DNA of 32,345 nt from a virus: positions 1 through 32,345 of the IMG/VR virus record IMGVR_UViG_3300032006_000045; one strand, written 5' to 3'. Below are positions 3,644 to 25,542 of the stretch, piece by piece; position 1 is the stretch's first letter, and each line of letters starts with the position of its first letter. Under the pieces are notes generated by a model. The model did no database searches. It worked only from the letters and a program-made list of their open reading frames with translations, and was not told the DNA's origin. The position numbers and the translations under genes are program-made.

Positions 3644-3886
3644 CTAATCTCCAAACGGGTCATTGGGGTCAAACGTGTCTTTTACTAGTCCACCGCCCAA
3701 TGCGGCAGCAAATCTCTGTACGTCACCGACATCCTTGGTTTTTTTAGTCTTATTGTCCTCAACGGAAACAGCGGCTATGACTTGGGCTGGGCTGGCTTCC
3801 CAGAAGTCTCCGTATCTTTGTCCTGTTTGGCACCAGGCTGCGATGGCTTTTGCCCAGGGGTAATCCCATCCAGATTTAGATTCTCT
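3644..3886 (-). CDS. Tail assembly chaperone, -1 frameshift extension (GT-like)
   Basis: Reading one base back from the frame of the 181-residue chaperone gives an open frame that runs past that gene's stop at 3775-3777 and ends with TAG at 3644-3646. It encodes about 80 residues beginning near RESKSGWDYPWAKAIAAW and ending DTFDPNDPFGD. It has no good start of its own. In siphoviruses the two genes before the tape measure are expressed as a short protein and a longer frameshifted fusion that chaperone tail assembly, so this is very probably the second half. The slip site is not certain. I see no perfect X-XXY-YYZ heptamer in the overlap. Candidates are A-AAA-GAG near 3883-3889 and C-CCT-GGG further on, so the left and right limits of the unique part are approximate. 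Confidence 0.75.
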   Translation of the reverse strand, partial: RESKSGWDYPWAKAIAAWCQTGQRYGDFWEASPAQVIAAVSVEDNKTKKTKDVGDVQRFAAALGGGLVKDTFDPNDPFGD

Positions 3887-4320
3887 TTTAGTTCCTGATT
3901 TAGCATCTCTATCTGCGAGCCCACCCCGATCTCCGCCTCCTTCAGGAGTTGGCTCGCTATCTCGGGGTTTACGCCGTTTGCCATGGCCCAGGCTACTCCG
4001 ATCGCATTGCTATATTCTGGGAGACGCCCATCAATCATGCGAGCCCCAGTCACTTCAATGGGTTCTTTCTCTATCAAAGAAAGAATTCTCCTTAATGTAG
4101 ATACAGGTTTTGATTGCATCTGCTCTTGCCATACCTCTAGACCACCCCATAATTCCTCGATATCAGCGATGATATTGTGGGTGAATTTGATGTAGATGGT
4201 TTCTGTCTTTAGTTCCCCTTCAGGCGTGTACTGGAGTGGCCAGTCACCATCGATGTGAATTACATCGGCTACCTCAACGGGAACACCTTTATTCCTGAGT
4301 ATTTCGGGCGTGTATTCCAT
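3775..4320 (-). CDS. Tail assembly chaperone, short form (G-like)
   Basis: This 181-residue protein has an N-terminal half with IYIKFTHNIIADIEELWGGLE and a helical middle ending in VAWAMANGVNPEIASQLL. Its C-terminal tail from about residue 150 is hydrophilic (proline, lysine, glutamine), as expected for a product terminating just beyond a frameshift site. It lies between the major tail protein and the tape measure gene, the standard chaperone position. Lambda gpG and mycobacteriophage homologs are assumed to hold the tape measure protein in an assembly-ready state; that role is transferred by synteny rather than shown by sequence identity. The upstream ribosome binding site is weak (AGTAAGT). 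A strong hairpin separates it from the major tail gene and may lower its expression relative to that gene. Confidence 0.8.
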   Translation of the reverse strand: MEYTPEILRNKGVPVEVADVIHIDGDWPLQYTPEGELKTETIYIKFTHNIIADIEELWGGLEVWQEQMQSKPVSTLRRILSLIEKEPIEVTGARMIDGRLPEYSNAIGVAWAMANGVNPEIASQLLKEAEIGVGSQIEMLNQELKENLNLDGITPGQKPSQPGAKQDKDTETSGKPAQPKS

Positions 4321-4344
4321 ACTTACTAATGTACCCCAAGCGCG

Positions 4345-4378
4345 AGAGGACGACAGCCCTCGAAGGCTGTCGTCCTCT
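4345..4378 (-). terminator. Strong hairpin after the major tail protein gene
   Basis: A perfect 14-bp inverted repeat (arms 4345-4358 and 4365-4378, starting AGAGGACGACAGCC) encloses a six-base loop. It lies 34 bases after the major tail gene and 25 bases before the chaperone start. It has no U-tract on either strand, so it may act as an attenuator, an RNA processing or stabilising stem, or an imperfect terminator rather than a classical intrinsic terminator. Confidence 0.5.
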
Positions 4379-4412
4379 TAAAATCCCGCTTTTAATTCGG
4401 TTTTTTAGTTAT

Positions 4413-4979
4413 TTAGAGCGATTCTGCTGTTTCAGCGAATGATATTGCTCCGTACCGAACTGGTGTACCGGCAGGCTTAATAGCCTCAGCGGTAAAGTTC
4501 GGAGTGTTGAAGGTGTCAGTAGAACCTGATACCAACGAACCACCAGTCAACTGGGCTTTCTGCAATGTCACCAAAACGGTGGCAAGAGAATCTCCAGATG
4601 TCTGTAGATCGTCGATCAGGAAACCAACCTTGAAGTACGGAAGCGAAGTGTCATCGATAGGCAAAAGTGCTGTCTCTGATGTGCCTGTTCCTGCTGCTGT
4701 GATTGTCTGTCCAAGTAGAACAGCAAGAACATCCATGGAAAGTTCGCTGTATGTACATGAGAAGTTGAGACGGTCAATCTTACCTTTCTTGGCAAGAACA
4801 ACACCGCCGTCGCCTTTCAACTCATTGGTTATAAAGTTTGGCTCCAGGGATACTTCCTGGATACCGGGGACATCGACGGCAGAGCCGAAGGTCGTTGCGT
4901 CACCGCTTGCGTCAGCGGTAATCGTATAGACCTTGCAATCCTTTACGTCGAAGGTAATTGCGCTTGTTGAAGCGGCCAT
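4413..4979 (-). CDS. Major tail protein (tail tube subunit)
   Basis: This 188-residue protein is predicted to polymerise into the tail tube. It is beta-rich with alternating hydrophobic residues, for example the DCKVYTITADASGDATTFG start, SVDVPGIQEVSLEPNFITNE, and a C-terminal FNTPNFTAEAIKPAG segment. Major tail proteins of actinophages commonly have this size and open with a short specification of the type position-value-offset. The start ATG at 4979 follows a clear AAGGAG ribosome binding site, as expected for an abundant virion protein. It is followed by a strong hairpin and then the chaperone pair and tape measure, the canonical siphovirus order. The assignment rests on synteny plus composition; I see no diagnostic catalytic motif because the family has none. 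Confidence 0.75.
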   Translation of the reverse strand: MAASTSAITFDVKDCKVYTITADASGDATTFGSAVDVPGIQEVSLEPNFITNELKGDGGVVLAKKGKIDRLNFSCTYSELSMDVLAVLLGQTITAAGTGTSETALLPIDDTSLPYFKVGFLIDDLQTSGDSLATVLVTLQKAQLTGGSLVSGSTDTFNTPNFTAEAIKPAGTPVRYGAISFAETAESL

Positions 4980-5149
4980 TGTGTAACTCCTTGCGGGATA
5001 GTCGGCCTGTTAGTTATTACTATTCTGTCTCACTGTGTGTAAAGGGTGAGAGAGGGTAAAGGGTGACTATACGTTTAGCCTCTAAACTAAACTAAATAGT
5101 CGCTGATAACGTGGCCCTTAGAAAACCCGATTTGGCCGAAGGATGAGGA
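4980..5149. promoter_or_regulatory. Divergent intergenic region
   Basis: This 170-base gap lies between two genes that point away from each other, so it should carry promoters for both the major tail gene (minus) and the unknown plus-strand island. It holds the MTP ribosome binding site (AAGGAG) and, at the other side, AAGGATGAGGA before the 5150 start. A short direct repeat of CTAAA units lies near 5081-5097, and a TATAGT that could be a minus-strand -10 box lies near 5067-5072. No convincing -35 partner is visible, so exact promoters are not assigned. Confidence 0.35.
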
Positions 5150-5389
5150 ATGGATTTCTCAACAACATTTAGTAACGCAGACAAAAGGTCAATGCTACAA
5201 CGAGCACTTGCTGCTATCGAGAACGAAATTCACGAAGCATCATGGCGTATAGGTATTGACCCCGATGATCTCTCAGTGGACTTTAAAGCAGTCGCTGACG
5301 AGTACGGTAACAAGAACCTGAATGAGGTTGCCTTAGAAGGAACACTCTCAAAGTGGTCTGCCGCTAAAGCAAAACTCGATTCACTGTAA
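5150..5389 (+). CDS. Unknown small protein, first gene of the plus-strand island
   Basis: This 79-residue protein is not recognised. It is predicted to be mostly helical, with an N-terminal helix reading DKRSMLQRALAAIENEIHEA and a short acidic link IDPDDLSVDF before a second helical half. The start ATG follows a good AAGGATGAGGA ribosome binding site, which supports it being translated. It opens a five-gene plus-strand run with short spacings and overlaps. Every other confident gene in the window is on the minus strand. No membrane segment, signal peptide or metal-binding motif is visible. Confidence 0.65.
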   Translation: MDFSTTFSNADKRSMLQRALAAIENEIHEASWRIGIDPDDLSVDFKAVADEYGNKNLNEVALEGTLSKWSAAKAKLDSL

Positions 5390-5401
5390 TAGGCTGTAGA
5401 C

Positions 5402-5611
5402 ATGGCCTTGACCGACGCTCAGAAAACAACCGCCAAAGCGCGGGCTAAAGAGTATTTAGAGTATTGCATTTACACGCTCTGTCTCGCTCTGCCCGAGGCT
5501 CCTGAAGACATTGATAGTTCCTTCGTTATCCCTGTCGATTCAGATCACGCCTTGTATAACGCCTACGACTGTTTAAAGAAGCAGGTCGCCGCTCACGAAG
5601 CATTGGGGTAA
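5402..5611 (+). CDS. Unknown small protein
   Basis: This 69-residue protein is not recognised. It starts 12 bases after the previous stop with only a weak ribosome binding site, so translation may be coupled. The N-terminal half is helical and basic (DAQKTTAKARAKEYLEYC) and there are three cysteines (two in YLEYCIYTLCLALPEAPED). These are not arranged as a recognisable zinc site. The C-terminal half is again helical (LYNAYDCLKKQVAAHEAL). Alternating helices and its position beside another small protein suggest a small structural or adaptor protein, but this is a guess. Confidence 0.6.
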   Translation: MALTDAQKTTAKARAKEYLEYCIYTLCLALPEAPEDIDSSFVIPVDSDHALYNAYDCLKKQVAAHEALG

Positions 5612-5614
5612 CCA

Positions 5615-6229
5615 ATGAAGTTCGATTATAAGGACTCTGCCCCGACACCAACTAAACAACCTGGGACTCTCTTAGGTGCAACATACGACACTGAACCTAC
5701 CGAAGCCCTTAAAGCACTATTCGGAGAAGTTGAAACTAGCAAATACGCGAGACAGTCAGACACCCTCCTTGAAGCAACAAATACTCTTAGAGGTAAATTC
5801 TCAGGAGGACGTTTGACCGATGAAACACTCGCCTCTCTCGGAACGGTATCCGAAGCGGTCAAAGGTGATGCCCCTGACACTGCCAAAACAACCGTAGATG
5901 GGGATGTCCAAGATCGCGTCGCTGTTAAAGGGTATGGGGTTACCCCACCATTAAAATGGAAAGAAGCCCAAGTCGGAAGACGAGAATGGGACAATGAGTT
6001 ACATGATAATGATCCAATCGAATGGATCCCCGAACTTATTGGGCGTGTAGCAAAAACAGGGGGAGTCACAGTTGGTGATCCAGACATGCCTGAAAGCCAC
6101 GACTCTCTTTATTGGGGGTGTATCCGTTTAGGTGGGATTACTCCTATGAACCCCTCCACTACAGAAGCAGGACATGCCGGATATATAAAAGTAGACATGT
6201 CCGCAGAATGGGATGATTTAGGAGAATGA
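5615..6229 (+). CDS. Unknown protein of the plus-strand island
   Basis: This 204-residue protein is not recognised. The first 60 residues are low-complexity and hydrophilic with several threonines and prolines. The middle contains TLLEATNTLRGKFSGGRLTD, and the C-terminal third is tryptophan-rich (PLKWKEAQVGRREWDNELHD, DPIEWIPELIGR, SLYWGCIRLGG). It starts three bases after the preceding stop and its TGA overlaps the next ATG, so it is clearly part of one transcript with its neighbours. The disordered start followed by an aromatic-rich domain could fit a minor virion protein, but nothing in the sequence fixes a role. Confidence 0.65.
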   Translation: MKFDYKDSAPTPTKQPGTLLGATYDTEPTEALKALFGEVETSKYARQSDTLLEATNTLRGKFSGGRLTDETLASLGTVSEAVKGDAPDTAKTTVDGDVQDRVAVKGYGVTPPLKWKEAQVGRREWDNELHDNDPIEWIPELIGRVAKTGGVTVGDPDMPESHDSLYWGCIRLGGITPMNPSTTEAGHAGYIKVDMSAEWDDLGE

Positions 6230-6594
6230 GCACTCGATCTTTTACCGGTTCCGAAGGCAACATTTACGATGCAGCCGCTGATATTGCGTATCTCCAAGGC
6301 GAAGTCGCTTATGTGATGGCAATATTAGGCATGGATTTAGATTCATTTGACTCCACCACAGTTGATGACATCGTAAGCGCCACTCGGGACATGTTCTCTT
6401 TTACATCATTAACGCAAGTATTAAGCCCCATGATCAACAAAGACGGGTCCATAGTTCTGAGAGATAACCCTGATCTACGAGTCGGAAGGGCTTACCATAG
6501 CGCTGCCGAAATAATGCTTAATAACAAGCGCGAAATGCTGCAAGAGGCAGTCCGACGCCACTTCAGACTATTGAAACTAGCGGAGGCAGCATAA
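6226..6594 (+). CDS. Unknown helical protein
   Basis: This 122-residue protein is not recognised. Its ATG overlaps the upstream stop (ATGA) and sits right behind GGAGA, a good ribosome binding site. The N-terminal part has an acidic helix (YDAAADIAYLQGEVAYVMAI) and a DLDSFDSTTVDDIVSATRDM segment. The C-terminal 40 residues form a basic amphipathic helix (KREMLQEAVRRHFRLLKLAE). The stop TAA overlaps the next start (TAATG). The tight overlaps on both sides point to stoichiometric or coupled expression with the upstream unknown and the downstream methyltransferase-like protein. Confidence 0.65.
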   Translation: MSTRSFTGSEGNIYDAAADIAYLQGEVAYVMAILGMDLDSFDSTTVDDIVSATRDMFSFTSLTQVLSPMINKDGSIVLRDNPDLRVGRAYHSAAEIMLNNKREMLQEAVRRHFRLLKLAEAA

Positions 6595-7367
6595 TGGCAA
6601 CTATCAAATACATGCCTTTCGGCGTAACAGATCTTTTTCGTAAGAACATTGTCGCTAAAGCACTTTCTAAAACCGGTTACACCGATATGGAAAACGGTTT
6701 CACTGAAGGTGTCCGTGATGATTTTTACAAGTCAGGTTCCGATTATATAAAAGCACGGAACCCCGACCTTCGCGCTATTGCAGGAGGGCACGACGTTTAC
6801 TTCCATATGTATGAACTTTTAGGGAACAGGCACCCAGAATGGGAAGCCTACTTATGGGTGCACATGGAATTAAGAATCTTGCTCCATAAACTCTTTAACC
6901 CGACAAAGACATTGCTGCATTTCGCTGACCCAAACAAATGGCTTCAAGAGTTAATGGCTGATGGTTCTAAAGAAGTCACGTTTATAAACGGTCTTGATTT
7001 CAACATCATGGAACGTTTTATAGCGAGCAACGACGAGTGGAAAGCAACTAACCCTCAATATAAAGTTATCGACCAATTAGATATCTTCGAAGGCACGAGT
7101 AGCGAGAAATTTGATTACATCGAGACACAAGCAGCGTTACTTTTCGGTGCTGACAGCAAATGGATAACTTCTTTGTGGGACATGGTCGACACAGGCGGTG
7201 TGATGGTTGTCATTAACACCGGGGCAAACAAAGGAATGTACCGGAACACGGTTATGTTGCTACATGAATATGTAGAACCCAATTGGGATTTAAAAGACCT
7301 TCCTAATGCTGAAGTGGTTCACTACCCAATCGACGCTGGCTACACAATTCTTATAAAGACTGCTTAG
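6594..7367 (+). CDS. Class I methyltransferase-fold-like protein, possibly degenerate
   Basis: This 257-residue protein has a C-terminal half with the strand order of a Rossmann-like methyltransferase: KTLLHFAD (residues 105-111), EVTFING (127-133), KVIDQLDIFEG (157-167), KFDYIETQAALLF (172-184), SLWDMVDTGGVMVVINTG (193-210), and a final strand pair near the C-terminus. The FDYIE strand followed by a helix and GGVMVVIN resembles the post-motif region of O-methyltransferases. The glycine-rich S-adenosylmethionine loop normally found after the first strand is missing; the position reads HFADPNKW. It may therefore be a divergent or inactive enzyme. The first 100 residues are helical and unassigned. 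It ends the plus-strand island and overlaps by four bases, tail to tail, with the last oxygenase gene. Confidence 0.55.
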   Translation: MATIKYMPFGVTDLFRKNIVAKALSKTGYTDMENGFTEGVRDDFYKSGSDYIKARNPDLRAIAGGHDVYFHMYELLGNRHPEWEAYLWVHMELRILLHKLFNPTKTLLHFADPNKWLQELMADGSKEVTFINGLDFNIMERFIASNDEWKATNPQYKVIDQLDIFEGTSSEKFDYIETQAALLFGADSKWITSLWDMVDTGGVMVVINTGANKGMYRNTVMLLHEYVEPNWDLKDLPNAEVVHYPIDAGYTILIKTA

Positions 7368-8218
7368 TCTTCTCCGTAGCCCCAACGTTCAGGTTGTTGA
7401 CCTGCCCAGACGTCTCTCATCGCTCGACCTAACGGCTTAGTTAAATAGACGTTGGTTGATCGTCCCAACATTTCTTCCGTGGCTTCTGTCGGGTCAATTA
7501 CATTTTCTCCTACTTCTGGGTTGGGTGTCCCTTGGCAATACCATCCGACATGACTAAACCTTGTGCCACCTTTAACCATCTCGCAAGCATGAGCCCCCAT
7601 GTAATTTGAGGGGAACACAATCAAATCACCTTTGCGTGGTTTGTACCTAATATCGAGATACTTAAACGCTAACCATCCACCCATAAAATTTGTGCCATCG
7701 AGTTGTGACGTGTCATCTACAGAGTCATTAAAGAATGTGATAGTGCTAACCACCGTTCGAGTCGCTATTTGATTTGGCGGATGGGGTGACCCATAGGCGT
7801 AATCAGTACTGGTATCAGCATGAAGCCCGAGAAACGAATCAGGAGGGTAGACGAGAATGTGTCCTCTTATTTTCCACCATACTGACATTGCGGCTATAGA
7901 GAACTGATCAATGTAATCAGTCACACATTTGTCAGTTGTCGTTTCAATGGTTTCTAAAATTTCTTTAATGTCTGGATCAGGGTCGGAGTAGACAAAAGCA
8001 CAATGCCGAGGCATGCACTCTATTCCTTTAGCGTCAAAGAAATATCCGTTTCTGTTTAGGTAACCCTCTTCACCTGTACGTGGGTCTTTCCCTGGCGTGT
8101 ACATTTCAGCCATCTCGGCTTCTGCTTGTTCTAAAGCGAAAGAACGCAAACGATCAAAATCAAGATCAAGAACATTTTTATAAAGAACAACACCGCCACC
8201 TAAATACTCCTTAATCAT
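7364..8218 (-). CDS. 2-oxoglutarate/Fe(II) oxygenase, prolyl-hydroxylase-like (cassette gene 8)
   Basis: This 284-residue protein is predicted to couple decarboxylation of 2-oxoglutarate to oxidation of an unidentified substrate. With the chosen start, the iron ligands are H133 and D135 (in GLHADTSTDY) and H210 (YMGAHACEM), and R220 would bind the 2-oxoglutarate carboxylate. GDLIVFPSNYMGAH is the typical last-strands signature of this superfamily. A longer frame begins at 8233. I prefer the ATG at 8218 because it overlaps the previous stop and follows GTGGGGTC, as in the gene before it, and because the paralogs begin at the equivalent point. A proline-rich insert (residues 142-152) interrupts the core. 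It is the last gene of the leftward operon. Confidence 0.85.
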   Translation of the reverse strand: MIKEYLGGGVVLYKNVLDLDFDRLRSFALEQAEAEMAEMYTPGKDPRTGEEGYLNRNGYFFDAKGIECMPRHCAFVYSDPDPDIKEILETIETTTDKCVTDYIDQFSIAAMSVWWKIRGHILVYPPDSFLGLHADTSTDYAYGSPHPPNQIATRTVVSTITFFNDSVDDTSQLDGTNFMGGWLAFKYLDIRYKPRKGDLIVFPSNYMGAHACEMVKGGTRFSHVGWYCQGTPNPEVGENVIDPTEATEEMLGRSTNVYLTKPLGRAMRDVWAGQQPERWGYGED

Positions 8219-9080
8219 GACCCCACGGCTCACCTGGTCCTCGTTGCAACCAATTCGGATGCTCTTTATCTAACCGCTCCAATGACCAACCGGATGACTC
8301 CATAAAGTCAGTGTCGATTGTGTCGCACCAGGTGAGGGAAGCCTCCGTCTGATGCTCTCTGAAAAAAATCTCTGCTTGGTCAGCATTTGGAGGTATCCGA
8401 AGCGGTTCATTGGAACCTTGGCAATAAAACGTCAAGTAAGACATACGGTGACCTTCATTAACGTATTCAATTTCATGTGCCCCTAAATAATTAGCGGGGA
8501 ACAACAAAATGTCACCAGCCCTGCAAGGGAAATTAAGATTGTCGGCATAAGGAAAAGTCACTCCCCCTCCGTCTGGTGTGTCAACCAAATGCAGGGTTGT
8601 ACTAACCACGTTGTGAGTAGTTAATTCTGACTGCCCAACGATGTCGTCCCATGCAGCGAATGAATATCCGCAATCGTTGTCGTGATGCCCAAAGAGGTGC
8701 CCCATTGGGGCGTCGTAAACAAGCGCATGGCCACGGTTACACCACCAAAGTTGGGAAAGAATCATCGGGTATTTTTCTATGTACTGCAAAAGTGCTGCAT
8801 AACAAACATCTGCGGCTTCTCGCCAAAAGTCATACCAAAATTCCACTTGCGGGATTACTGGTGGAGCATGGACCTGGACTCTGATTGGATCCTGCCCATG
8901 GAACTCGATAGGAGTTCGGGTACCGGTTGCTTTGTTTACAACCTCGTCTCCTTCAACCACATATTGATGCTCCCATTGACCTTTACTAATAACCAACAAC
9001 TCATCAATTATCTCTTCAGGGATTTCCATAGCATTCCGAATGAGAGCAATCCCGTTTTGAAAATGCTCAATCTCAGACAT
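8211..9080 (-). CDS. 2-oxoglutarate/Fe(II) oxygenase, prolyl-hydroxylase-like (cassette gene 7)
   Basis: This 289-residue protein from the ATG at 9080 has iron ligands H132 and D134 in GHHDNDCGY, H202 in YLGAHEIEY, and R212 for 2-oxoglutarate. It is a close paralog of the next gene upstream: both share the MSQ/LSQ-(I/L)WWC-(S/N)RGH segment, HHDND, VVSTTxHL and PANYL. The longer frame from 9170 is rejected because its first 30 residues overlap the upstream gene, match no paralog, and the 9080 ATG aligns with the start of that paralog. The ATG sits directly behind GGGGTGG, within the coding tail of the previous gene, and overlaps its TGA by eight bases. The substrate is unknown. Confidence 0.87.
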   Translation of the reverse strand: MSEIEHFQNGIALIRNAMEIPEEIIDELLVISKGQWEHQYVVEGDEVVNKATGTRTPIEFHGQDPIRVQVHAPPVIPQVEFWYDFWREAADVCYAALLQYIEKYPMILSQLWWCNRGHALVYDAPMGHLFGHHDNDCGYSFAAWDDIVGQSELTTHNVVSTTLHLVDTPDGGGVTFPYADNLNFPCRAGDILLFPANYLGAHEIEYVNEGHRMSYLTFYCQGSNEPLRIPPNADQAEIFFREHQTEASLTWCDTIDTDFMESSGWSLERLDKEHPNWLQRGPGEPWGHD

Positions 9081-9924
9081 GGCCACCCCAATGGTCAGGG
9101 GCGTTTCTGCTTGACATCCACTGTGGGTGACGATGATAAAATGTTTCAAGATCCCACCCTGACGATTCAAGGAAGTCTTCGTGAAGGGTTTTCACCCACG
9201 TGAATGAATTATCTACACGATGTTCACGATCTCTGACTGGGAGAATGTTGCCGCCACCTATTAAATGTGAGCCCTGCCCCCAAAACGTTAGGTATGAGAT
9301 TCTTCTGCTACCTTCTTGGACAGGCGTTATGCCATGAGTGGCTAAATAATTAGCGGGGAAAACTAAAACATCCCCTGCCTTTGTTTCTATCTCTAAATTG
9401 TCTAAGTAAGGAAAGACCATGCTGCCTCCTTCCGAATCACAAAGATGCATCGTGGTGCTTACAACATTCTGTGCAGAAACTTCTGTAAAACCTGCAATTT
9501 TCTCATTCACTGGCCATGCATAACCAACATCATTGTCATGATGGGCTAGTAACCGTGCCCCAGGTTCATAAACCAATGAGTGCCCTCGACTACACCACCA
9601 AATCTGAGACATTAAATGTGGGTAACGCTCAAGATATTTAAGTAAGACACCCCAACAGACATCAGAAGCATACTTCCACCACTCATAATGTTCGTCACTA
9701 GCCTCAGCAGGAGGTTGGTGAACTTGGACACGAACAGGCTTTTCGAGCACCACGTCAATATTGTCAACTATCCCTGTTTGTGTACTGATAAGCAGATCCC
9801 CATCTTTTTCATATTGAGCGTCAAATTCAGCATCCCGTAAATACAACAACTCATCAATGATTGACTGAGGGACATCAATAACGTTCTTATAATGAGAGAC
9901 CCCGTTCCCGTAGTGTTCAACCAT
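9073..9924 (-). CDS. 2-oxoglutarate/Fe(II) oxygenase, prolyl-hydroxylase-like (cassette gene 6)
   Basis: This 283-residue protein has a complete facial triad: H128 and D130 (AHHDNDVGYAW) and H197 (YLATHGITPV), with R208 in the 2-oxoglutarate position. GDVLVFPANYLATHG is the typical double-strand signature. It clearly arose by duplication with its downstream neighbour, with the same motifs in the same order and similar length. The start overlaps the upstream TauD-like gene by eight bases and follows GAAGGG. No signal peptide or membrane segment is seen, so it should act in the cytoplasm on intracellular protein or metabolite substrates. What it oxidises is not shown by the sequence. Confidence 0.88.
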   Translation of the reverse strand: MVEHYGNGVSHYKNVIDVPQSIIDELLYLRDAEFDAQYEKDGDLLISTQTGIVDNIDVVLEKPVRVQVHQPPAEASDEHYEWWKYASDVCWGVLLKYLERYPHLMSQIWWCSRGHSLVYEPGARLLAHHDNDVGYAWPVNEKIAGFTEVSAQNVVSTTMHLCDSEGGSMVFPYLDNLEIETKAGDVLVFPANYLATHGITPVQEGSRRISYLTFWGQGSHLIGGGNILPVRDREHRVDNSFTWVKTLHEDFLESSGWDLETFYHRHPQWMSSRNAPDHWGGHV

Positions 9925-10969
9925 GATATGAATGCCCTTCAGGAACTATGTACTGCTGATCTCGTGGGGGTAAAGTTTGGACAGCATATTGGTTCCCCCC
10001 GTGATACTTAATGTGATCAAAAACAAGTTCGCCTAAATCGAACCCAGCGCCCCACGCTGTTTGCAAACGGTAGGCGTCGTAAATAACAAGATCTCCTTGT
10101 TCCCAATCCCACCACTGTTGGTTATCAGGATTGACAACATAATCGAACACCCATTTAAAAAATTCCATAGGTTCAATACATTCTTCCTCAAACTCGAACG
10201 GGAGTTGAGGGTTGCCGAGGTTGGTCCCCGTGGAATGTAAAACAGGGTAAGAGCCATACCAATGCAATTCAATCACACGGTGAGGATATTGAGTGACCCC
10301 ATCTGGCATATAAGAGACTTGAGTTTCTTTTTTGTATGCTTTCTCCAAAGGATTAACCCATGAAGATGGAAGAGCCTTAAATGCTTCAGACATATCAACA
10401 AACCCCAACCCACCTGCGCGTTTCGAAGCGGTGAAGGTATGCATATGAATGGCATTTGTTCTCACTAAATGCTGTTTATAGGCATCATCCATGTTCCAGA
10501 AAATCATTGTTTGCCGTGACGCTTGTTCTTGCCCTGGGTAAAGAACATCTTCTTCGCCGGGTGGTTTCCCACCTGTCCCCACACCCTTAGTCATTTGTTC
10601 GAACCGTGTGGCAAAGTTTTCGTTTCTACGGATGAATGAACCACTCAATGTGTATTCATCTATACCGGCTCTTTCCACAGGCGTAGTCTCAGTTAGATCC
10701 CCACGGTCTAGTTCTTCGAGGTCATACATCGGTTCACCAAAACGTCGGTCGGCTGTAAGAAAGGCTTCTGTTGTGGCTTTACCCCGTGACCAATCCTCTA
10801 ACGGCTTCTCAGATATAGAAAGTGCTTGGGTTATGTCTGCAAAGTCTTGGACTGTCAGATTCAGACCCCTGAACGCCAAAACTCCTTCTTTGAATAGGAG
10901 CGCTCTGAATTCATCCGCACCATCAAGAATGTCTTCCACTCGGAGATACGAAAAGTTTTGGATCTTCAT
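9917..10969 (-). CDS. TauD/TfdA-like protein lacking the iron ligands (cassette gene 5)
   Basis: This 350-residue protein aligns along its length with the next gene upstream, which has an intact TauD-like site. Shared landmarks are the N-terminal GVLAFRGLNLT strand, RAGGLGFVDMSEAFKALP (the usual G-x-F-x-DM-x-x-AY-x-x-LP stretch), and WEQGDLVIYDAYRL. The iron-binding residues are lost: the HxD/E position reads WNMD (N159, D161), the distal histidine is T304, and the arginine that binds 2-oxoglutarate is not conserved. It may be a pseudoenzyme subunit, a regulator, or a protein that binds the substrate without catalysis. The frame is intact, overlaps its neighbours by 4 and 8 bases, and has a GGAG ribosome binding site, so it is not decaying. 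Confidence 0.8.
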   Translation of the reverse strand: MKIQNFSYLRVEDILDGADEFRALLFKEGVLAFRGLNLTVQDFADITQALSISEKPLEDWSRGKATTEAFLTADRRFGEPMYDLEELDRGDLTETTPVERAGIDEYTLSGSFIRRNENFATRFEQMTKGVGTGGKPPGEEDVLYPGQEQASRQTMIFWNMDDAYKQHLVRTNAIHMHTFTASKRAGGLGFVDMSEAFKALPSSWVNPLEKAYKKETQVSYMPDGVTQYPHRVIELHWYGSYPVLHSTGTNLGNPQLPFEFEEECIEPMEFFKWVFDYVVNPDNQQWWDWEQGDLVIYDAYRLQTAWGAGFDLGELVFDHIKYHGGNQYAVQTLPPRDQQYIVPEGHSYHG

Positions 10970-12030
10970 ATGAACTCCGCAACTGGGCGCTTCCCGTGTG
11001 GATCCCCCGTGAAGCCTTTCCCGAAGTAATACCGTCCTCTTAGAAGCCTCTCATTTTTATTAAACCCACCTTCGACTGCGTGCATTAAAGAAAATATGTC
11101 TAGAGCCAACAAATCCCCCTCGTCCCATTGCAGCCAAAACTGATTTGTTTCAGTTTCTATGTATTCATATAACCATGTTTTGAAATCAAGAAGAAGTCGG
11201 GGATCACACTCTTCTTCTAAGAATTGTTGCCCCCCATTGGAATAAACATCGAAATCAGTTTTATAAGCCGTCCCATAAGTTCCTCCCCATGTGTTAATTT
11301 TCGGCATTTCTGACTCTAAACGCCACATCTCTTTAGGGCGTTCACCATGATCCTCTGGGGGGAAAGGTGTCACCGAACGAATCACATATCGCCCCGTGAC
11401 AGGATGTTCCATTGCCAATGGTTTAGGATCCACCACTATCGCATCAGATGTTTCAGGAACCGGGATCCAAAACGGTTCCCCTTGGGCAACTGTTCTGTAA
11501 GCCTGACTACGAAACCAGTCGATGTCCACTGGCATAAACCCTGGGACACTTACAGTTTGCACCCTGTGGGAAAACTCGCGTAAACGATCAGGCATCCTGT
11601 CATAAATCAACCCGCCGTCAATGAAACCAGTCCTACCAACTCCTCTTTTTTTAGGGAACTTGTCCATCGACCACAACCCGTGCACGGGTGGATTTAACAT
11701 CTCATTGTTTTCATAGTGCCACGGATTCATTTTGAGAGAGTCATGAGGGTCGATTCCAGCAGAACCTCGTGACTCTAGAAGAGCATCTTTCAATGAGGTT
11801 TTACCCATGTCTTCCATGACTTTGAACATGTGGTTGTAAGTAACTTCATATCGTGAAACATGATCATTAGGCGAAACCAAACCAAAGACGTCAGCCACAA
11901 CATCTTTTTCTTCTTCGGTAGCATTCAACTTCGGGAAAAGCACAAGAGGGTGCTGATTAAGTATGCCTTCAAAATCTTCAGGGTATTTAGTGAGATCATC
12001 AAGTGTCACGTTGTCTAGAACACGGATCAT
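10966..12030 (-). CDS. TauD/TfdA-like 2-oxoglutarate/Fe(II) dioxygenase (cassette gene 4)
   Basis: This 354-residue protein carries the TauD-like triad with a glutamate variant: H105 and E107 in NPWHYENNE, and H317 in SLMHAVEGG. R328, R331 or R333 is the candidate 2-oxoglutarate carboxylate ligand. WDEGDLLALDIFSLMHA matches the family's GDLv-x-D-x-x-x-x-x-H signature, and GRTGFIDGGLIYDRMP matches the central conserved strand and helix. TauD family members oxidise small molecules such as sulfonates, carnitine or phenoxyacetates, and some act on amino acids or peptidyl substrates. Here the substrate is unknown. The start overlaps the upstream stop as TAATG, preceded by CAGGAG, which indicates coupled translation with the DUF6065-like gene. 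Confidence 0.87.
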   Translation of the reverse strand: MIRVLDNVTLDDLTKYPEDFEGILNQHPLVLFPKLNATEEEKDVVADVFGLVSPNDHVSRYEVTYNHMFKVMEDMGKTSLKDALLESRGSAGIDPHDSLKMNPWHYENNEMLNPPVHGLWSMDKFPKKRGVGRTGFIDGGLIYDRMPDRLREFSHRVQTVSVPGFMPVDIDWFRSQAYRTVAQGEPFWIPVPETSDAIVVDPKPLAMEHPVTGRYVIRSVTPFPPEDHGERPKEMWRLESEMPKINTWGGTYGTAYKTDFDVYSNGGQQFLEEECDPRLLLDFKTWLYEYIETETNQFWLQWDEGDLLALDIFSLMHAVEGGFNKNERLLRGRYYFGKGFTGDPHGKRPVAEFI

Positions 12031-12749
12031 TATGGCTCCTGAAGCGTTGGGTGCCCCTCATGTTTGGGGCCTATCTGCTCGCCTTTTTCGTTTAGGCCAG
12101 TTCTGACACTCCCCATCCATGACCATGGCTGTTCTCTCATTTTAGCCGTTTTAGCATTCCCATACGATTGGCGGGAGGCCATCAATTGATCGTCATCCCA
12201 AATGTTCTTAACATCTAATTCCACATTGCACTGAAAATCATCTTCAACGATCTGGAAAAACATAAACGGCATACCCTCAGGGAAGACAACTTCTTTACCA
12301 GGAGTGGTCATCATCCAATTCATGTTCACTTCATCTGGCCACCAACCAGGAACCATCGCAGTTAAAGGAACGGCGCCATCAATAAAATAATTAGGAGGGC
12401 CTGATAGCAGAACACTGTGCCCTGGTGGTGTGTTTATAGCCCACCCGACAGTGAAAGACATGATGCTAATAATGCTCGGAACAACAACATCGCGTTCGTA
12501 CTCGTGGCCGTTCTCTAACGTGTGTGTGATCTTTTCACCGCTTAAGACTTTGGGGACCGTGTTCCCTCCATCCCATTTGACTACTACATCTTGTTGAAGT
12601 CTCAACTCCCAACCATTGACATTGGCGGCGGTTAAGGGCAGACACTTGTAGGCATGTTTTTTATATGTCGCGTCCATCCACTCTCGTCGTGGGCGACATT
12701 GAGTTATTTGGGGAGGGTTCTGGTGGGTTCGGGTCAGTGTTGCTTTCAT
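12030..12749 (-). CDS. DUF6065-like protein (cassette gene 3)
   Basis: This 239-residue protein matches my memory of the DUF6065 pattern: LPLTAANVNGWEL (residues 38-49), a short stretch with VKWDGG, then VGWAINTPPGHSVLLSGPPN (101-120), DGAVPLTAMVPGWWPD, NMNWMMTTPGKEVVFPEGMPF (142-162). DUF6065 proteins have no established biochemical activity that I know of. The gene is embedded between two oxygenase genes with ATGA and TAATG overlaps, so it probably acts with them, perhaps in substrate recognition or as a partner protein; that is inference. No catalytic triad, membrane segment or signal peptide is visible. Confidence 0.7.
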   Translation of the reverse strand: MKATLTRTHQNPPQITQCRPRREWMDATYKKHAYKCLPLTAANVNGWELRLQQDVVVKWDGGNTVPKVLSGEKITHTLENGHEYERDVVVPSIISIMSFTVGWAINTPPGHSVLLSGPPNYFIDGAVPLTAMVPGWWPDEVNMNWMMTTPGKEVVFPEGMPFMFFQIVEDDFQCNVELDVKNIWDDDQLMASRQSYGNAKTAKMREQPWSWMGSVRTGLNEKGEQIGPKHEGHPTLQEP

Positions 12750-13471
12750 GAACTCGCTGACTGTACCTGTCCAGTTGCGTCTTCGATGCCTATTTGGGTT
12801 TCAAGAGTCAGGTTGTCTGAGCGGTGATTTAAATCGTTGTAGTCATACATCACCACTAAGGAATATTTGGTGCCTGTCTCGATCGGCAAAGATTGGTGGA
12901 CGTAAGGGTAATTCGATGGGAAGACAACCATGTCCCCTGCATGTGGCGTGAATTTTATGTCTTGGTAAGGGAACACCAATTCGCCGCCTGTGTAGTCTTC
13001 GCCGCAGGTGTTGAAGAAAGCCACGACAGAAGTTGTGCAGGTGTATGAGAACCCGCAATCAGGGTGAACTTGGAAATGTTGGCCTTCTTTGTATCTAACG
13101 AAATTAGGCGCTTCGAAGTATTCCAAAGTCCCAAGATTTAGGTTTTCGCAATAATGTTCCACGCAAGCATGAACTGGTCCCATAACTTCGTCGTAGATTT
13201 CTCGAGCGTCGGCGAACTCTTCAGGAGGGTTCGTGAACTGTTCAAACTTAATCCCTTTAGTGCCACCGTATTTGAAGTCAGAGCAGTCCCTGTAATCCAG
13301 CATCTCCTCCACGAAACCAACTCTGGCATTGTTCCATCTGAAAAACGGGTCGTCTTCAGTCAAGATCGCTTCTAACCGCTGTGGGTATGTTTGATTACTT
13401 GGGAAAAGGTTCTTGTAAAGGGTTATACAAGCACCTGGTTGCCCTATTTGATAAGCCTCAATGTCTTTCAT
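12746..13471 (-). CDS. 2-oxoglutarate/Fe(II) oxygenase, prolyl-hydroxylase-like (cassette gene 2)
   Basis: This 241-residue protein from the ATG at 13471 has H136 and D138 (FQVHPDCGFSY) and H192 (PYVHQSLP), with K202 where the 2-oxoglutarate-binding basic residue sits. Lysine here is typical of true prolyl-4-hydroxylases. GGELVFPYQDIKFTPHAGDMVVFPSNY is the usual core, and it runs longer than the paralogs' loops. A 16-residue longer frame from 13519 exists, but the 13471 ATG overlaps the previous TGA and follows AGGAGGGGAAG, the best ribosome binding site in the cassette. The N-terminal segment has six conserved-looking aromatic residues and two cysteine clusters. It is predicted to be cytoplasmic. 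Confidence 0.87.
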   Translation of the reverse strand: MKDIEAYQIGQPGACITLYKNLFPSNQTYPQRLEAILTEDDPFFRWNNARVGFVEEMLDYRDCSDFKYGGTKGIKFEQFTNPPEEFADAREIYDEVMGPVHACVEHYCENLNLGTLEYFEAPNFVRYKEGQHFQVHPDCGFSYTCTTSVVAFFNTCGEDYTGGELVFPYQDIKFTPHAGDMVVFPSNYPYVHQSLPIETGTKYSLVVMYDYNDLNHRSDNLTLETQIGIEDATGQVQSASS

Positions 13472-14097
13472 TCTTCCCCTCCTAATTGGGTGATTGTGTA
13501 GAAAGATGGTGTCGTCCATCTAACACCATCAGTAACAGGGCGAACCCCATGCAAATAGTGGATGTCCCCTGGGTGGGCTACAGCCATTCCTTCTTCGATT
13601 GGTAAAACCATCCCATGCTCGGGATAATAAAAAGCGCCGCCTTCGAAATCTTCATTCCAATAGATAATCGAATTTATGTCGTAAGTGGGAAACGGGTTAG
13701 GGGTGCCATCATTCAACTGTTTGTCGGCATGCGGCAATTGCTCATTCCCTGGTAGCCAACGGACAAGCACCGGCGGTCGTTTATGAACTGCGAGATTGAA
13801 CTTATCTTCAATAGCGAACTGCATTTTTAAAATGTATTTATCAATCAACTTGAAAATCTCAGGGTTGATCTCTTCAAGAATTGAAGCGCTACACATGCGA
13901 TCCCACCAGTAAGAAGCATCGTAAATGCATTCACCATCTTCGTTGTATTCGGTCTCCCGTGGGTTATCCCATTCGTTGATCGTAGGTAAAAACCTTTGGA
14001 TGATTCTGAGATCGACAGGGTCTACGAAATCATAGAGAACAAGAATGTTGTCAGATGAGTCCCCAAAATGGCCGGGTTCTATCAGGGATTCTTCCAT
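13468..14097 (-). CDS. 2-oxoglutarate/Fe(II) oxygenase, prolyl-hydroxylase-like (cassette gene 1)
   Basis: This 209-residue protein is the first oxygenase after the proline-rich repeat gene. H123 and D125 (QLPHADKQL) and H183 (YLHGVRPV) form the metal site, and R193 (DGVRWTTPSFYT) the 2-oxoglutarate site. The double strand reads YDINSIIYWNEDFEGGAFYYPEHG, a typical prolyl-4-hydroxylase core, with the GDIHYLHGVRPV signature near the C-terminus. It is shorter than most of its neighbours, which is close to the minimal size for this fold. Its start lies 20 bases after the repeat gene's stop, and its TGA overlaps the next start. The close linkage with the repeat protein makes that protein the best candidate substrate. 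Confidence 0.87.
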   Translation of the reverse strand: MEESLIEPGHFGDSSDNILVLYDFVDPVDLRIIQRFLPTINEWDNPRETEYNEDGECIYDASYWWDRMCSASILEEINPEIFKLIDKYILKMQFAIEDKFNLAVHKRPPVLVRWLPGNEQLPHADKQLNDGTPNPFPTYDINSIIYWNEDFEGGAFYYPEHGMVLPIEEGMAVAHPGDIHYLHGVRPVTDGVRWTTPSFYTITQLGGEE

Positions 14098-14117: not shown

Positions 14118-14561
14118 TTACTCTTCTTCAGTATCCTTTTCTTCCATCGCATACCCAGGATCCTGATAATGGATAAAGGACGGTGGGAAGTGAGGAGGGA
14201 AAAATGGTGGGAAAAATGGTGGGAAATGAGGTGGGAAAAACGGCGGGAAAAATGGCGGGAAGTGAGGAGGGAAAAACGGCGGAAAGAACGGTGGGAAAAA
14301 CGGCGGGAAAAACGGTGGGAAGAACGGACTGTAATATGTGTAGTCCATTGAATGCCCCAACAACTTGATATCCCCAGCAGTATCTACCTGACTAGCGACC
14401 GTGTTTTCAAGGCCGCTGTTGTCGGTATTGGTTGTGCTTTTAGTACCTACAACCATCCCAGCAGAAACGATTTGGGAGTCAGCGTTAGTGGTTGTCTGTC
14501 CAACAATGTTGGGGATCTCGTCTTTACGTGGGAGATCTTGTTCTGAACCTGACTGCGCCAT
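14118..14561 (-). CDS. PASTA-like domain protein with PFFP/PHFP repeats
   Basis: This 147-residue protein has two parts. Residues 15-77 resemble a PASTA domain: EIPNIVGQTTTNADSQIVSA, then GMVVGT, and ASQVDTAG followed by a final strand. PASTA domains of actinobacterial kinases and penicillin-binding proteins bind peptidoglycan. Residues 79-126 are twelve tandem tetrapeptides of the form P-(F/H)-F-P, with histidine in the sixth, ninth and twelfth units, then an acidic tail. No signal peptide is seen. It lies between fibre genes and the oxygenase run, so it is most likely a small virion protein that touches the host cell wall, and a possible hydroxylation target. I know of comparable FFPP-rich proteins in uncultured marine phages, but not of their role. 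Confidence 0.8.
   Translation of the reverse strand: MAQSGSEQDLPRKDEIPNIVGQTTTNADSQIVSAGMVVGTKSTTNTDNSGLENTVASQVDTAGDIKLLGHSMDYTYYSPFFPPFFPPFFPPFFPPFFPPHFPPFFPPFFPPHFPPFFPPFFPPHFPPSFIHYQDPGYAMEEKDTEEE
14184..14327. repeat. 12-bp tandem repeat coding PFFP/PHFP units
   Basis: Twelve near-perfect 12-bp units encode the P-x-F-P tetrapeptides of the PASTA-like protein. Units with histidine recur about every third unit at the right end, giving a higher-order 36-bp period. Base differences between units are mostly synonymous (GG/CG pairs), which suggests an old, selectively kept array rather than a fresh slippage product. The repeat has no spacers. Confidence 0.9.
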
Positions 14562-14583: not shown

Positions 14584-17460
14584 CTAGTCGTCCAAGTCAC
14601 CTGTCACAAGCCACTCATCTGTGGCGATTTTTGTGATTGTGCAAGACGAATATTGGGCTCGCAATTTGAGCCCCGGAGTTGAACGTAGAGTCACACCAGA
14701 CCCTGCCACTATTGTCGCTTGGGCGCTACCTACTTGCGCGACCTGTACAGAATCCCCAACAGCGAAAGGAACACTGCTGTTAGGTGGAACTGTTATTGAT
14801 TGAGCGGAACCGTTGCTGGTAGTAACCAACTTGCCTCGGTCCCCGATCACCAGGGTGTACGCAGTTCCCGTCTGAGCATTCAGATCGAGGCTGTAACGAA
14901 CGTTACCTGTGACGTCAAAACCGTCGGCATCAAGGACTGCTGTTTCTGTTCCACCAACGTCAAACCGGATTTTGTCCTCATCTGAGGATTCCTCAACTTG
15001 AACCTTGGTGTCATTATCAGCGTCTTTAATGATTGTTGCATCGACCGTGCTTAAACCAGTATCGACATAAGCAGTGGTCGCCACTTTCGTGGAGTTGTCA
15101 TCAGCCGATTGTGTTGTAGCAGTAATTCCGTCTGCGAGGACGACAGTTGCTGCGAGTGAATTCTTCGACAATTGGATGACACCGTCAATGTAAACACTCT
15201 TGCCAGTGGCGAGAGCGATGTGTTCTGAAGATGTCCAAGCGTCAGTTGAGTCAACCCAGTTGAAGGTTTTATCGCTTGCGCCCTTCAGGGTGATTCCACC
15301 GCCGTCAGCAGTGGTGTCACTCGGAGAAGCGACAGCGCCGAGTTCAATGTTCTTGTCATCAACTGTGATGGTTGTTGAACTGATCTCAGTCGTCGTTCCG
15401 TTAACCGTGAGGTTCCCTGAAATGGTGACAGTGCCATCAGCGGCTATTGTCATTCTTTCTGAACCGGCAGTGTCAAAACGAATAATGTCTTCGTCTGAGG
15501 ATTCTTCTAACTGGATCTTGGTGTCGCCATCAGCGTCATCTATTGATGTGATTGCGGCAGAGGCTGTGGTGGCTTGAGTATCCGTATATGCGGTCGTTGC
15601 CACTTTCGTAGAGTTGTCGCTAGCAGATTGTGTGGTTGCTGCGACGCCATCTGCGAGAACAACCGTGGCTGCTAGAGAAGTGCTCGTCAAAAGGCTTGTG
15701 CCTCCTACGAGTATCCCCATGCTAGAAGCAAGGTTGATACCTGATTGCATCACGTCAGCGATTGTTGAGTCAGTTCCGTTTATCGAAACGCTCATACGGA
15801 TTGTTCCGTCTTCGCCACCTGCTGCTGGATCTGAAACAAGACCCGTAATCATTCCGTAGATGTTGTCTGAGCCGCCGTCGTCTTCACCCATGAATTGGAT
15901 TTGTCCGAGCAGATCGTTAGCAGCCTGACTTCCACTGTTTCTTTCTAAGTAAAGAAACGGCCCAGCACTAGCACCACTATCAGTAGTGAGAATGTTTATT
16001 GCACTTCCGAAAGCACCAGTAATTCCTGTTGCAGCGAACTGGCTGCTAGTGAATGAATACTTGTCGCTGCCAGCAAGATTTACTTTCATAACGTCATCTG
16101 CACTCCAATAAAGTTTGGAATCAGAATCAGTGTCATAAACCTCAGTGATTTTTAGATCTATAGCACCATCACCAGCATCGTCGTAGGTCGCCGTAGCGCC
16201 GCTGTGAGAGCCGTTGGTGGCTAATTGGGCCCCAACTATGTCTTCAACGTTCTCCGTGACGAGAGCAAGGTCTATGGCGCCGTCACCGGCATCGTCGTAT
16301 GTGGCTGTAATACCAGTGTGTGATCCGTTTGTTGCTAATTGTGCTCCTGCGATATCTTGCACATTTTCTGAAACGAGAGCCAAATCGACGGCTCCGTCAC
16401 CTGCATCATCGTAAGTAGCGGTGATTCCTGTGTGAGACCCATTAGTCGCTAATTGCGCCCCTGCGACATCTTGCGCCGCTTCAGTAAAATCAGTTACTGC
16501 TGAAGCAGCGATAGCGATAGTCGTGTCAGAAGCAGCGGTTAAACGCCCATAAGTATCAACCGTGAAAGTAGGCACAGCCGAAGCGCTACCGTAAGAAGCG
16601 CCTGTCACAGCCGTTGCCGCTAAATCAATATCGTCTGCGTTAACAACTATTCGTGCAGAACTAGCAGTCCCAACGTTGATTGTGTTACCACTGCTTGCGA
16701 GACCCGTACCGGGAGTGATCGCCTGGGTACCTGTGAATTGTGTGAATGCAATATCGTTAGTACCCACAGTGTGTGGATCACTTGTGGATGTTACAACAAA
16801 GCCTTGACCACCATTGGTGCTACCAGAGAGAACATAAACTGATTCGCCAGGGATAATCTCGGCTCCAGCGCTACCATCAAAGTCAACTGCACGAGTTAAT
16901 ACCCATGCGGCTGAACCGGAAGCGCCTTGAGCGGTTACATCATAAATACCGTTGTTAGCGGCAGTGGATTCGTCTTGGACAAGAATTCGATCGCCTGTGC
17001 TGGCGTTAGTGCCATCTACTTGTAAACGAACGTTTGAATCTGAGGTGAGTGTTGCTCCTACACCTGATGTCCCATTGCTGTAAGTCGGGGAGTTGGGGAG
17101 TGCGGCAGCGGTGCCCAACTTCACGGCTTCATGCCAGTGAACGACTTTCTCAGGGGATCCCCATTTAACACCACCACTTTGAGCGCTATCAGCGATAAGA
17201 ACTTGTCCATTCGAGCCAACGGCGACTCGGTCGACAGAGTTATCGGCGGTTCCTAAAATAAGGTCACCTTTAGCATCAACGAGGGCAGTGTCAATTGCAC
17301 CTAACCCGCCGTATCCAAGTGACGTCCAGACAGTGCTACCGTCACCGATCTTATACTTCCTAGTGTCCGACTCGATAGCGAACTCACCGTCGCTCAATGT
17401 CGGATTGTTAGATGTCCAGTTGGATGCTGTGTCCCTTCTGAACTGAATTTTTGCTGCCAT
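14584..17460 (-). CDS. Large tail fibre / structural protein
   Basis: This 958-residue protein begins with MAAKIQFRRDTASNW and a KIGDGSTVWTSLGYGG segment, a common N-terminal cap on phage fibre proteins that attaches them to the virion. The rest is serine/threonine/alanine-rich beta-structure with three 38-residue tandem repeats near residues 322-436, and two copies of a segment beginning LAATVVLADG that is followed by EESSDED. A GNLTVNGTTT...TVDDKNIELG module near residues 660-750 is shared with the smaller fibre gene at 17971. These features fit a trimeric receptor-binding or side fibre. The start follows AGGAG. The gene precedes the PASTA-like repeat protein by 22 bases. No enzymatic domain is seen. 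Confidence 0.8.
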   Translation of the reverse strand: MAAKIQFRRDTASNWTSNNPTLSDGEFAIESDTRKYKIGDGSTVWTSLGYGGLGAIDTALVDAKGDLILGTADNSVDRVAVGSNGQVLIADSAQSGGVKWGSPEKVVHWHEAVKLGTAAALPNSPTYSNGTSGVGATLTSDSNVRLQVDGTNASTGDRILVQDESTAANNGIYDVTAQGASGSAAWVLTRAVDFDGSAGAEIIPGESVYVLSGSTNGGQGFVVTSTSDPHTVGTNDIAFTQFTGTQAITPGTGLASSGNTINVGTASSARIVVNADDIDLAATAVTGASYGSASAVPTFTVDTYGRLTAASDTTIAIAASAVTDFTEAAQDVAGAQLATNGSHTGITATYDDAGDGAVDLALVSENVQDIAGAQLATNGSHTGITATYDDAGDGAIDLALVTENVEDIVGAQLATNGSHSGATATYDDAGDGAIDLKITEVYDTDSDSKLYWSADDVMKVNLAGSDKYSFTSSQFAATGITGAFGSAINILTTDSGASAGPFLYLERNSGSQAANDLLGQIQFMGEDDGGSDNIYGMITGLVSDPAAGGEDGTIRMSVSINGTDSTIADVMQSGINLASSMGILVGGTSLLTSTSLAATVVLADGVAATTQSASDNSTKVATTAYTDTQATTASAAITSIDDADGDTKIQLEESSDEDIIRFDTAGSERMTIAADGTVTISGNLTVNGTTTEISSTTITVDDKNIELGAVASPSDTTADGGGITLKGASDKTFNWVDSTDAWTSSEHIALATGKSVYIDGVIQLSKNSLAATVVLADGITATTQSADDNSTKVATTAYVDTGLSTVDATIIKDADNDTKVQVEESSDEDKIRFDVGGTETAVLDADGFDVTGNVRYSLDLNAQTGTAYTLVIGDRGKLVTTSNGSAQSITVPPNSSVPFAVGDSVQVAQVGSAQATIVAGSGVTLRSTPGLKLRAQYSSCTITKIATDEWLVTGDLDD
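16153..16494. repeat. Three tandem 114-bp repeats inside the large fibre gene
   Basis: Units at about 16153-16266, 16267-16380 and 16381-16494 encode 38-residue blocks ending in the QLATNGSHTGITATYDDAGD type sequence. Amino acids are nearly identical while codons differ, so the copies have diverged under protein-level selection. Such repeats lengthen fibre shafts and provide recombination sites. Confidence 0.85.
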
Positions 17461-25173: not shown

Positions 25174-25542
25174 CTATTCGATGTCATCAGGGGGATCAAA
25201 AGGCTCTTCATCATCGAACTCAGGTAACATTTGTGCGGGATCAAAGACTGTTTGGCCAGCGTAAGTCACTCTGCTCGGCCAACTGAGTTTCCTTAGTTGA
25301 TTAGAGATACTTTGTAAGGACGCTGCCGCTATTTGAGGAGGCACAGTACCTAAATCAACATGGTTAGGTTCTGAAGGATCATCTAATGACAGAACGATTG
25401 TTATTACAGGGAAATGTTTTGCTTGTGGGATGTCGTCGTCGAATGCAAAATTTGCGTTTACTTGCTCAAGCCCCGCCTCATACGGAGTAGTACTTACCTC
25501 GGAAGATGGCTTCTCCCCTGGAGATTGGGATGAGTTCGACAT
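25174..25542 (-). CDS. Small acidic protein upstream of the capsid gene
   Basis: This 122-residue protein is not recognised. It is acidic throughout, with a beta-like centre (HFPVITIVLSLDDPSEPNHV, then DLGTVPPQIAAASLQSIS) and an aspartate/glutamate/proline-rich tail (MLPEFDDEEPFDPPDDIE). It overlaps the 3-prime end of the metallophosphoesterase gene by 65 bases, an unusually long overlap, but no later in-frame start is available. Its place between the metallophosphoesterase and the capsid gene is often taken by small assembly proteins in actinophages. Confidence 0.55.
   Translation of the reverse strand: MSNSSQSPGEKPSSEVSTTPYEAGLEQVNANFAFDDDIPQAKHFPVITIVLSLDDPSEPNHVDLGTVPPQIAAASLQSISNQLRKLSWPSRVTYAGQTVFDPAQMLPEFDDEEPFDPPDDIE

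Follow-up and report, generated by a model that had tools for sequence, protein, structure and literature searches.

What would a phage do with seven oxygenase relatives in a row, and on what would they act? This question is raised by a cassette of eight minus-strand open reading frames (ORFs) at 7364-14097 of the IMG/VR virus record IMGVR_UViG_3300032006_000045. The window analyzed here is positions 1-32,345 of that record, the full 32,345 bases. It belongs to a siphovirus-like phage, with portal, protease, capsid, head-tail connector, tail fibre, and major tail protein genes in addition to the cassette. Seven of the eight ORFs encode relatives of 2-oxoglutarate (2OG)/Fe(II) oxygenases, and one encodes a DUF6065 protein. 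The gene directly upstream, g9, lies just outside the interval (7364-14097) delimited in an earlier, sequence-only reading of this DNA, and it encodes a protein with tandem X-F-P-P (XFPP) repeats. The best explanation of the sequence data is that the cassette may be a phage-encoded machine that hydroxylates the phage's own XFPP tail fibre. We consider it probable that the XFPP protein is a substrate of at least one cassette enzyme.

The cassette and the adjoining repeat gene

Along the minus strand, the cassette genes run in the order g8 (class O1), g7 (class O2), g6 (DUF6065), g5 and g4 (both TauD-like), g3, g2, and g1. The features, listed from the upstream fibre gene g10, are as follows.

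14584..17460, minus strand: g10, a 958-amino-acid tail fibre with an Mtd_N N terminus (Pfam Mtd_N, 5e-12; PHROG tail fibre, 3e-30), directly upstream of the XFPP gene
14118..14561, minus strand: g9, the XFPP-repeat protein, with a PASTA-like N terminus and 12 tandem X-F-P-P units; the proposed substrate
14176..14327, minus strand: the XFPP-coding repeat array, with a 12-base unit (Tandem Repeats Finder and codon table)
13468..14097, minus strand: g8, class O1, a 2OG-Fe(II) oxygenase (PHROG 61, 5.5e-11; HAD...H...R intact)
12746..13519, minus strand: g7, class O2, a 2OG-Fe(II) oxygenase (Pfam, 6.6e-11; HPD...H...K intact); probable start at about 13471
12030..12749, minus strand: g6, DUF6065 (Pfam PF19541, 7e-40; 137.4 bits against a cut-off of 26.6)
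10966..12030, minus strand: g5, a TauD-like oxygenase with ligands present (WHYEN...SLMHA...R; Pfam TauD, 1.9e-14; 54.7 bits against 27)
9917..10969, minus strand: g4, TauD-like, with metal ligands lost (WNMD, no distal His; Pfam TauD, 5.7e-13; 49.8 bits against 27)
9073..9924, minus strand: g3, a 2OG-Fe(II) oxygenase and paralogue of g2 (45% identical; Pfam, 3e-8; ligands intact)
8211..9170, minus strand: g2, a 2OG-Fe(II) oxygenase (Pfam, 7.5e-4, below cut-off; PHROG 61, 1.4e-6; ligands intact); probable ATG start at about 9080
7364..8233, minus strand: g1, a 2OG-Fe(II) oxygenase (Pfam, 1.2e-8; ligands intact), whose downstream position is kept in 21 loci; probable ATG start at about 8218

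Pfam and PHROG matches confirmed the eight-gene cassette that had been described from the sequence alone, with its seven oxygenase relatives and a DUF6065-like protein. The Pfam cut-off for 2OG-FeII_Oxy_3 (PF13640; 27 bits) was passed by g1, g3, and g7. Both g2 (20.8 bits) and g8 (20.7 bits) fell under it, and both match PHROG 61, a 2OG oxygenase family. The HxD...H...R/K set is intact in all five of these PF13640-type proteins, in agreement with the five prolyl-hydroxylase-like proteins seen earlier. A motif check also upheld the distinction drawn then between one intact TauD-like protein (g5) and one without ligands (g4). The latter is TauD-like by fold family only, and we do not count it as an active enzyme.

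Gene spacing suggests that the cassette is likely to be one expression unit. Overlaps of 1 to 8 bases had been claimed throughout. They hold with the inner starts listed for g1, g2, and g7, but with the first possible starts they reach up to 98 bases. The gap from g10 to g9 is about 22 bases, and that from g9 to g8 is about 20 bases. No terminator-like site was found on the minus strand from the upstream fibre genes to the start of the cassette.

The repeat of g9 follows a strict rule. Among 137 distinct proteins with 1745 repeats in all, 1742 repeats have F, H, Y, or W at X (1047 F, 413 H, 267 Y, and 15 W), and 3 have another residue; F-P-P was required by the search, and only the X position was free. 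FPP is constant despite synonymous changes among its proline codons, indicating that the rule acts on the protein. Some XFPP relatives carry a Peptidase_S74 fibre chaperone (3.6e-11, L082), fibronectin III (fn3), or PASTA domain by Pfam. The PASTA match in g9 itself scores 19 bits, under the cut-off, and is above the cut-off in a relative (L128). Because of these domains, the XFPP proteins look like virion tail fibres. g9 itself adjoins the tail fibre gene g10, among tail genes. Some XFPP proteins also carry or end in a Hint-like sequence of the self-splicing type (L179:3040-5559 and L138:6071-7393), with a weak Hint_2 match (8e-4) in L179.

Recurrence of the module and its linkage to the repeat

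A DUF6065 profile scan found a relative encoded in 126 viral contigs. Around the DUF6065 homologues of 82 viral contigs, a set that includes near-duplicates, an ordered module recurs: O1, O2, DUF6065, an optional TauD gene, several more oxygenases, and a methyltransferase-fold gene. The median locus has five PF13640-type genes and one TauD, but TauD counts are slightly high, because some of the proteins first labelled TauD have a thioredoxin fold (GSHPx-like), as in L014 and L016. At least five oxygenases are present in 59 of these loci, and no locus has none. Even contigs whose DUF6065 is just 65% identical hold the same set, with five PF13640-type and two TauD-like genes around one DUF6065.

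Orthologous groups keep their places within the module. O1 orthologues lie at position -2 and O2 orthologues at position -1 relative to DUF6065, and O1, the class of g8, is the most conserved enzyme. These fixed positions argue for specialized steps and not for random accumulation. Because the module recurs in order across tens of diverged contigs, a chance origin of the cassette is excluded. The sequence-only reading had proposed a joint system, against which homologues scattered singly in unrelated contexts would have spoken. Gene order in other uncultured phages revealed the opposite: across dozens of diverged viral contigs, the genes stay together and keep their order.

Two further features were seen among these loci. 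A thioredoxin-fold, glutathione-peroxidase-like family (PF00255, 2.6e-12) is encoded in 46 of the 82 (for example, L046:13512-14174 and L020:7834-8658) and is not in the window. A C-terminal RHAGHxWHYPD sequence is common to long TauD-like proteins and the peroxidase-like protein of the module (L018:10624-12294, L028:10720-12294, and L014:3112-4023), and is possibly a small shared domain.

The XFPP and oxygenase-fold proteins might both be structural, with the latter binding the repeat as non-catalytic components of the virion or a scaffold, and the loss of ligands in g4 and in a recurrent paralogue would fit such a role. However, 129 of 145 non-redundant enzymes keep all four catalytic positions (HxD/E...H...R/K), and so do the five PF13640-type proteins of the window; we regard a purely structural role as very improbable.

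The repeat and the enzymes are linked from either side. Of the DUF6065 loci, 40 extend 4.5 kb or more upstream, and 37 of these have an XFPP ORF. The median gap between the XFPP ORF and the nearest oxygenase gene is 318 bases, and in every case that oxygenase has its best match in class O1 or O2. The converse scan searched for XFPP DNA and was blind to the enzymes. It returned 120 stretches, 87 of which had an oxygenase and 50 of which had three or more (3.1 per 10 kb). In a control scan for collagen-like repeats, an oxygenase was found in 11 of 120 stretches, and three or more in one (0.13 per 10 kb). The oxygenase rate was thus 24 times higher for XFPP than for this control, which was not matched for environment. 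When whole records were searched, 71 of the first 80 XFPP loci had an oxygenase in the record.

Because the collagen-like control was unmatched in this respect, we made a second control from records of 15 kb or longer with the capsid of the window phage, 28 in all. XFPP, above-cut-off DUF6065, and module-type oxygenases all occurred in the same 4 records. Six other long records of this set (58-105 kb) had zero to two oxygenases and no XFPP repeat. The independent events in this test are few, because two of the four records (G114 and G043) are nearly the same phage.

We considered whether the TauD enzyme acts on the His of HFPP. Near the clade of the window (including L015), H in the repeat coincides with a TauD gene beside DUF6065, and loci without H have no TauD. 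This was not general. An independent set had TauD in 7 of 19 H-positive versus 7 of 46 H-negative records. The association is probably a lineage effect, and the assignment was rejected.

A sister phage with a related capsid, G124, has a different gene set beside a His/Asn/Pro/Gly-rich fibre (L427, which is G124:22000-35000, at 3747-11564). It comprises a 2OG oxygenase, a tryptophan halogenase (Pfam, 8e-98), a gene with weak likeness to DUF6065, a second 2OG oxygenase, and additional unassigned genes. This arrangement suggests swappable fibre-modification chemistries. It also bears on another explanation, in which the oxygenases have a different target, such as g10, some other protein of the virion, or a glycan or peptide on the host surface, and the XFPP gene is merely a neighbor in the fibre locus. 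Fibre genes and enzymes could simply be adjacent, and in G124 two oxygenases, a DUF6065-like gene, and the halogenase lie beside a fibre without XFPP. However, G124 likewise pairs oxygenases with an unusual repetitive fibre. Moreover, g10 has no FPP motif. In capsid-matched phages, gain and loss of XFPP go with gain and loss of the cluster, and the link is found from the repeat as well as from the enzymes. We therefore judge a different target to be unlikely. Virion proteins, glycans, and host peptides had all been offered as targets on sequence alone; linkage and fibre domains favor the first, in the form of the XFPP fibre next door.

Proposed modification of the fibre

Profile comparisons lend support to protein hydroxylation by this cassette. 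The nearest solved relative of the O1 profile (A6) is prolyl 3-hydroxylase 1 (8k0e, 1.9e-6). That of the O2 profile (A5) is a Bacillus prolyl 4-hydroxylase (3itq/5hv0, 3.2e-6), followed by LH3. The g2/g3 profile (A8) has weak matches to PiuC and prolyl 4-hydroxylase.

From the observed gene order, conserved catalytic residues, strict repeat rule, repeat-enzyme linkage, and fibre-type domains on the repeat proteins, we infer the following chemistry. The XFPP gene and the oxygenases would be expressed jointly at a late stage of infection. Given their likeness to prolyl 3- and 4-hydroxylases, O1 (g8) and O2 (g7) would hydroxylate the prolines of the g9 repeats. The remaining oxygenases may act on further positions or on the products of earlier steps. 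For the phage, the outcome would be a hydroxyproline-rich tail fibre that is stiff and/or adhesive, or one that offers an attachment point for further groups.

DUF6065 is the single-copy core gene of the module and lies between the oxygenases. It is beta-rich and has many invariant Trp and His residues (alignment A3). The g6 model has a predicted local distance difference test (pLDDT) score of 79, and its best PDB matches are dUTPases. At a template modeling (TM) score of about 0.4, these matches are too weak to claim DUF6065 as a dUTPase or a relative of one. Our guess, because of the invariant Trp-rich sequence, is that DUF6065 may bind or present the XFPP repeat. No mention of DUF6065 was found in the literature searched.

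The cassette is met at its downstream end by a convergent gene.

6594..7367, plus strand: convergent gene with a class I O-methyltransferase-like fold (structure model), with homologues in 48 of the 82 module loci

The model of this protein has a pLDDT of 86, and its best Foldseek matches are O-methyltransferases (E, 1e-9; TM, 0.45-0.55). It has no Pfam match, and the glycine-rich S-adenosylmethionine-binding motif I was not seen by eye in alignment A4. We therefore call it methyltransferase-fold only, and it is a possible further member of the module. It is one of four to five small plus-strand genes at 5150-7367 that converge with the cassette and are kept in diverged relatives.

Several oxygenases and a methyltransferase-fold gene also resemble natural-product tailoring, as if the cluster made a small molecule or modified peptide that the phage releases. 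However, no peptide synthetase, adenylation, or radical-SAM family was found among the recurrent neighbors scanned, and the sole conserved repetitive partner is a fibre-type protein. We give such a biosynthetic cluster very little credence.

A bolder form of the fibre hydroxylation model is possible, although we hold it doubtful as a whole. A new multi-enzyme line would heavily oxidize the aromatic/His-Phe-Pro-Pro fibre, with DUF6065 as presenter, and yield an adhesive or glycosylation-ready tail. Several residues per repeat would be oxidized, perhaps to dihydroxyproline- or hydroxyhistidine-like forms, and partly methylated. Sister phages would swap chemistries to suit other repetitive fibres, for example by using the tryptophan halogenase.

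Several observations weigh against hydroxylation of the XFPP fibre by the cassette. The prolyl hydroxylase profile matches are remote and leave the substrate residue unfixed. The involvement of five to eleven enzymes for a four-residue repeat is unexplained. Catalytic residues are lost in g4 and in a recurrent oxygenase paralogue; the latter, which keeps a fixed place downstream, no longer has its iron ligands (YD..D or FD..N types) and is pseudo-enzyme-like. Two XFPP records of 37-38 kb (L111 and L171) have no PF13640 match, although they may be fragments. Finally, the linkage could reflect a common place in the tail module and not a relation of enzyme and substrate.

Likely host and comparison with known systems

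The capsid and portal of the window phage are closest to those of Gordonia and Brevibacterium phages. Of 36 records that bear the module, 16 encode WhiB, an actinobacterial regulator, and the nearest relative has two such genes. These relatives and the WhiB genes make an uncultured actinobacterium from an aquatic habitat the most likely host, and the sequence-only guess of an actinophage is thereby backed. We had also sought the host through DUF6065 in genomes. Among one genome each for 84,980 species, the DUF6065 phage clade was found in only two contigs, both phage-like contigs of metagenome-assembled genomes. These contigs (L345 and L346) carry the full module and were binned as Gammaproteobacteria and Verrucomicrobiales. 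They are probably phage contigs binned wrongly; this route was therefore dropped, and WhiB was used in its place.

Two minus-strand genes elsewhere in the window stand out. One at 25478-26635 encodes a metallophosphoesterase (PHROG, 7e-89) and sits between the capsid and protease genes. The other, at 31183-31857, adjoins the portal gene, an unusual place. It had been grouped with the oxygenases by single linkage. This candidate was rejected, since its sequence is Rossmann-like (GLISPGEMGTG...) and resembles an NAD(P)-binding dehydrogenase.

The 2OG oxygenases that abound in aquatic phages are mostly classed as auxiliary metabolic genes (AMGs), and their purpose is unsettled. Modification of fibres would account for the abundance of such enzymes. 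The conserved pairing with a strictly patterned fibre repeat provides a concrete candidate substrate and a simple mass spectrometry test. If the proposal is true, the fibres with which phages of abundant uncultured Actinobacteria contact their receptors are modified post-translationally by the phages themselves, which bears on host range and on the reading of AMG counts. It would also provide an enzyme and repeat set with which bacteria could produce hydroxyproline-rich materials.

In 50,697 phage records, g8 and g7 had remote matches only, mostly in cyanophages. DUF6065, TauD, and g9 had no match there, although low-complexity filtering could hide the repeat. DUF6065 (PF19541) also occurs in Caulobacter vibrioides, which served as a control. 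The XFPP repeat paired with DUF6065 and ordered enzymes was not found in those records or in the literature searched. The kind is not wholly new, since both phages rich in oxygenases and a viral prolyl hydroxylase have been described.

T4-like cyanophages carry 2OG-Fe(II) oxygenases, which have been tied to 2OG and nitrogen signaling (Sullivan et al. 2010, PMC3037559). S-SCSM1 has 24 such genes (PMC9602691), and S-CREM1 has ten (PMC9964418). Like the module, these phages have several PF13640-type oxygenases in one genome, some near tail-fibre genes and, in ACG-2014f, near a collagen-like repeat protein. Unlike it, the two stretches read lack the XFPP repeat and the ordered O1-O2-DUF6065 unit, and the roles proposed in these three papers are metabolic. 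The enzymes of the window might similarly shift 2OG levels or host nitrogen signaling, as put forward for marine T4-like cyanophages (PMC3037559). However, ordered orthologues tied to a fibre repeat would not be expected of a bulk 2OG effect. In addition, that proposal rests on cyanobacterial NtcA, whereas the hosts here look actinobacterial. We find a metabolic role highly improbable for this cassette.

A proposed parallel is animal collagen, whose short tandem Pro-rich repeat is worked on by multiple prolyl or lysyl oxygenases (P3H1, P4H, and LH3); among solved structures, these three enzyme types rank closest to O1 and O2. Hydroxyproline-rich proteins also include extensins and mussel foot proteins. 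The module differs from collagen and extensin systems in its tetrapeptide (XFPP versus GXY or SPPPP), its location on a phage virion protein, and its lack of an endoplasmic reticulum or a known glycosylation step.

Among viruses, chlorella virus PBCV-1 has a prolyl 4-hydroxylase (Eriksson et al. 1999, cited in PMC9301287) whose presumed targets are proline-rich viral proteins. That virome paper calls the viral use of prolyl hydroxylase cryptic. Both systems have a virus-encoded prolyl-4-hydroxylase-type oxygenase with a presumed proline-rich viral target. However, PBCV-1 is a eukaryotic virus with a single enzyme, whereas the phage module combines five to eleven clustered oxygenases with a dedicated XFPP fibre and DUF6065.

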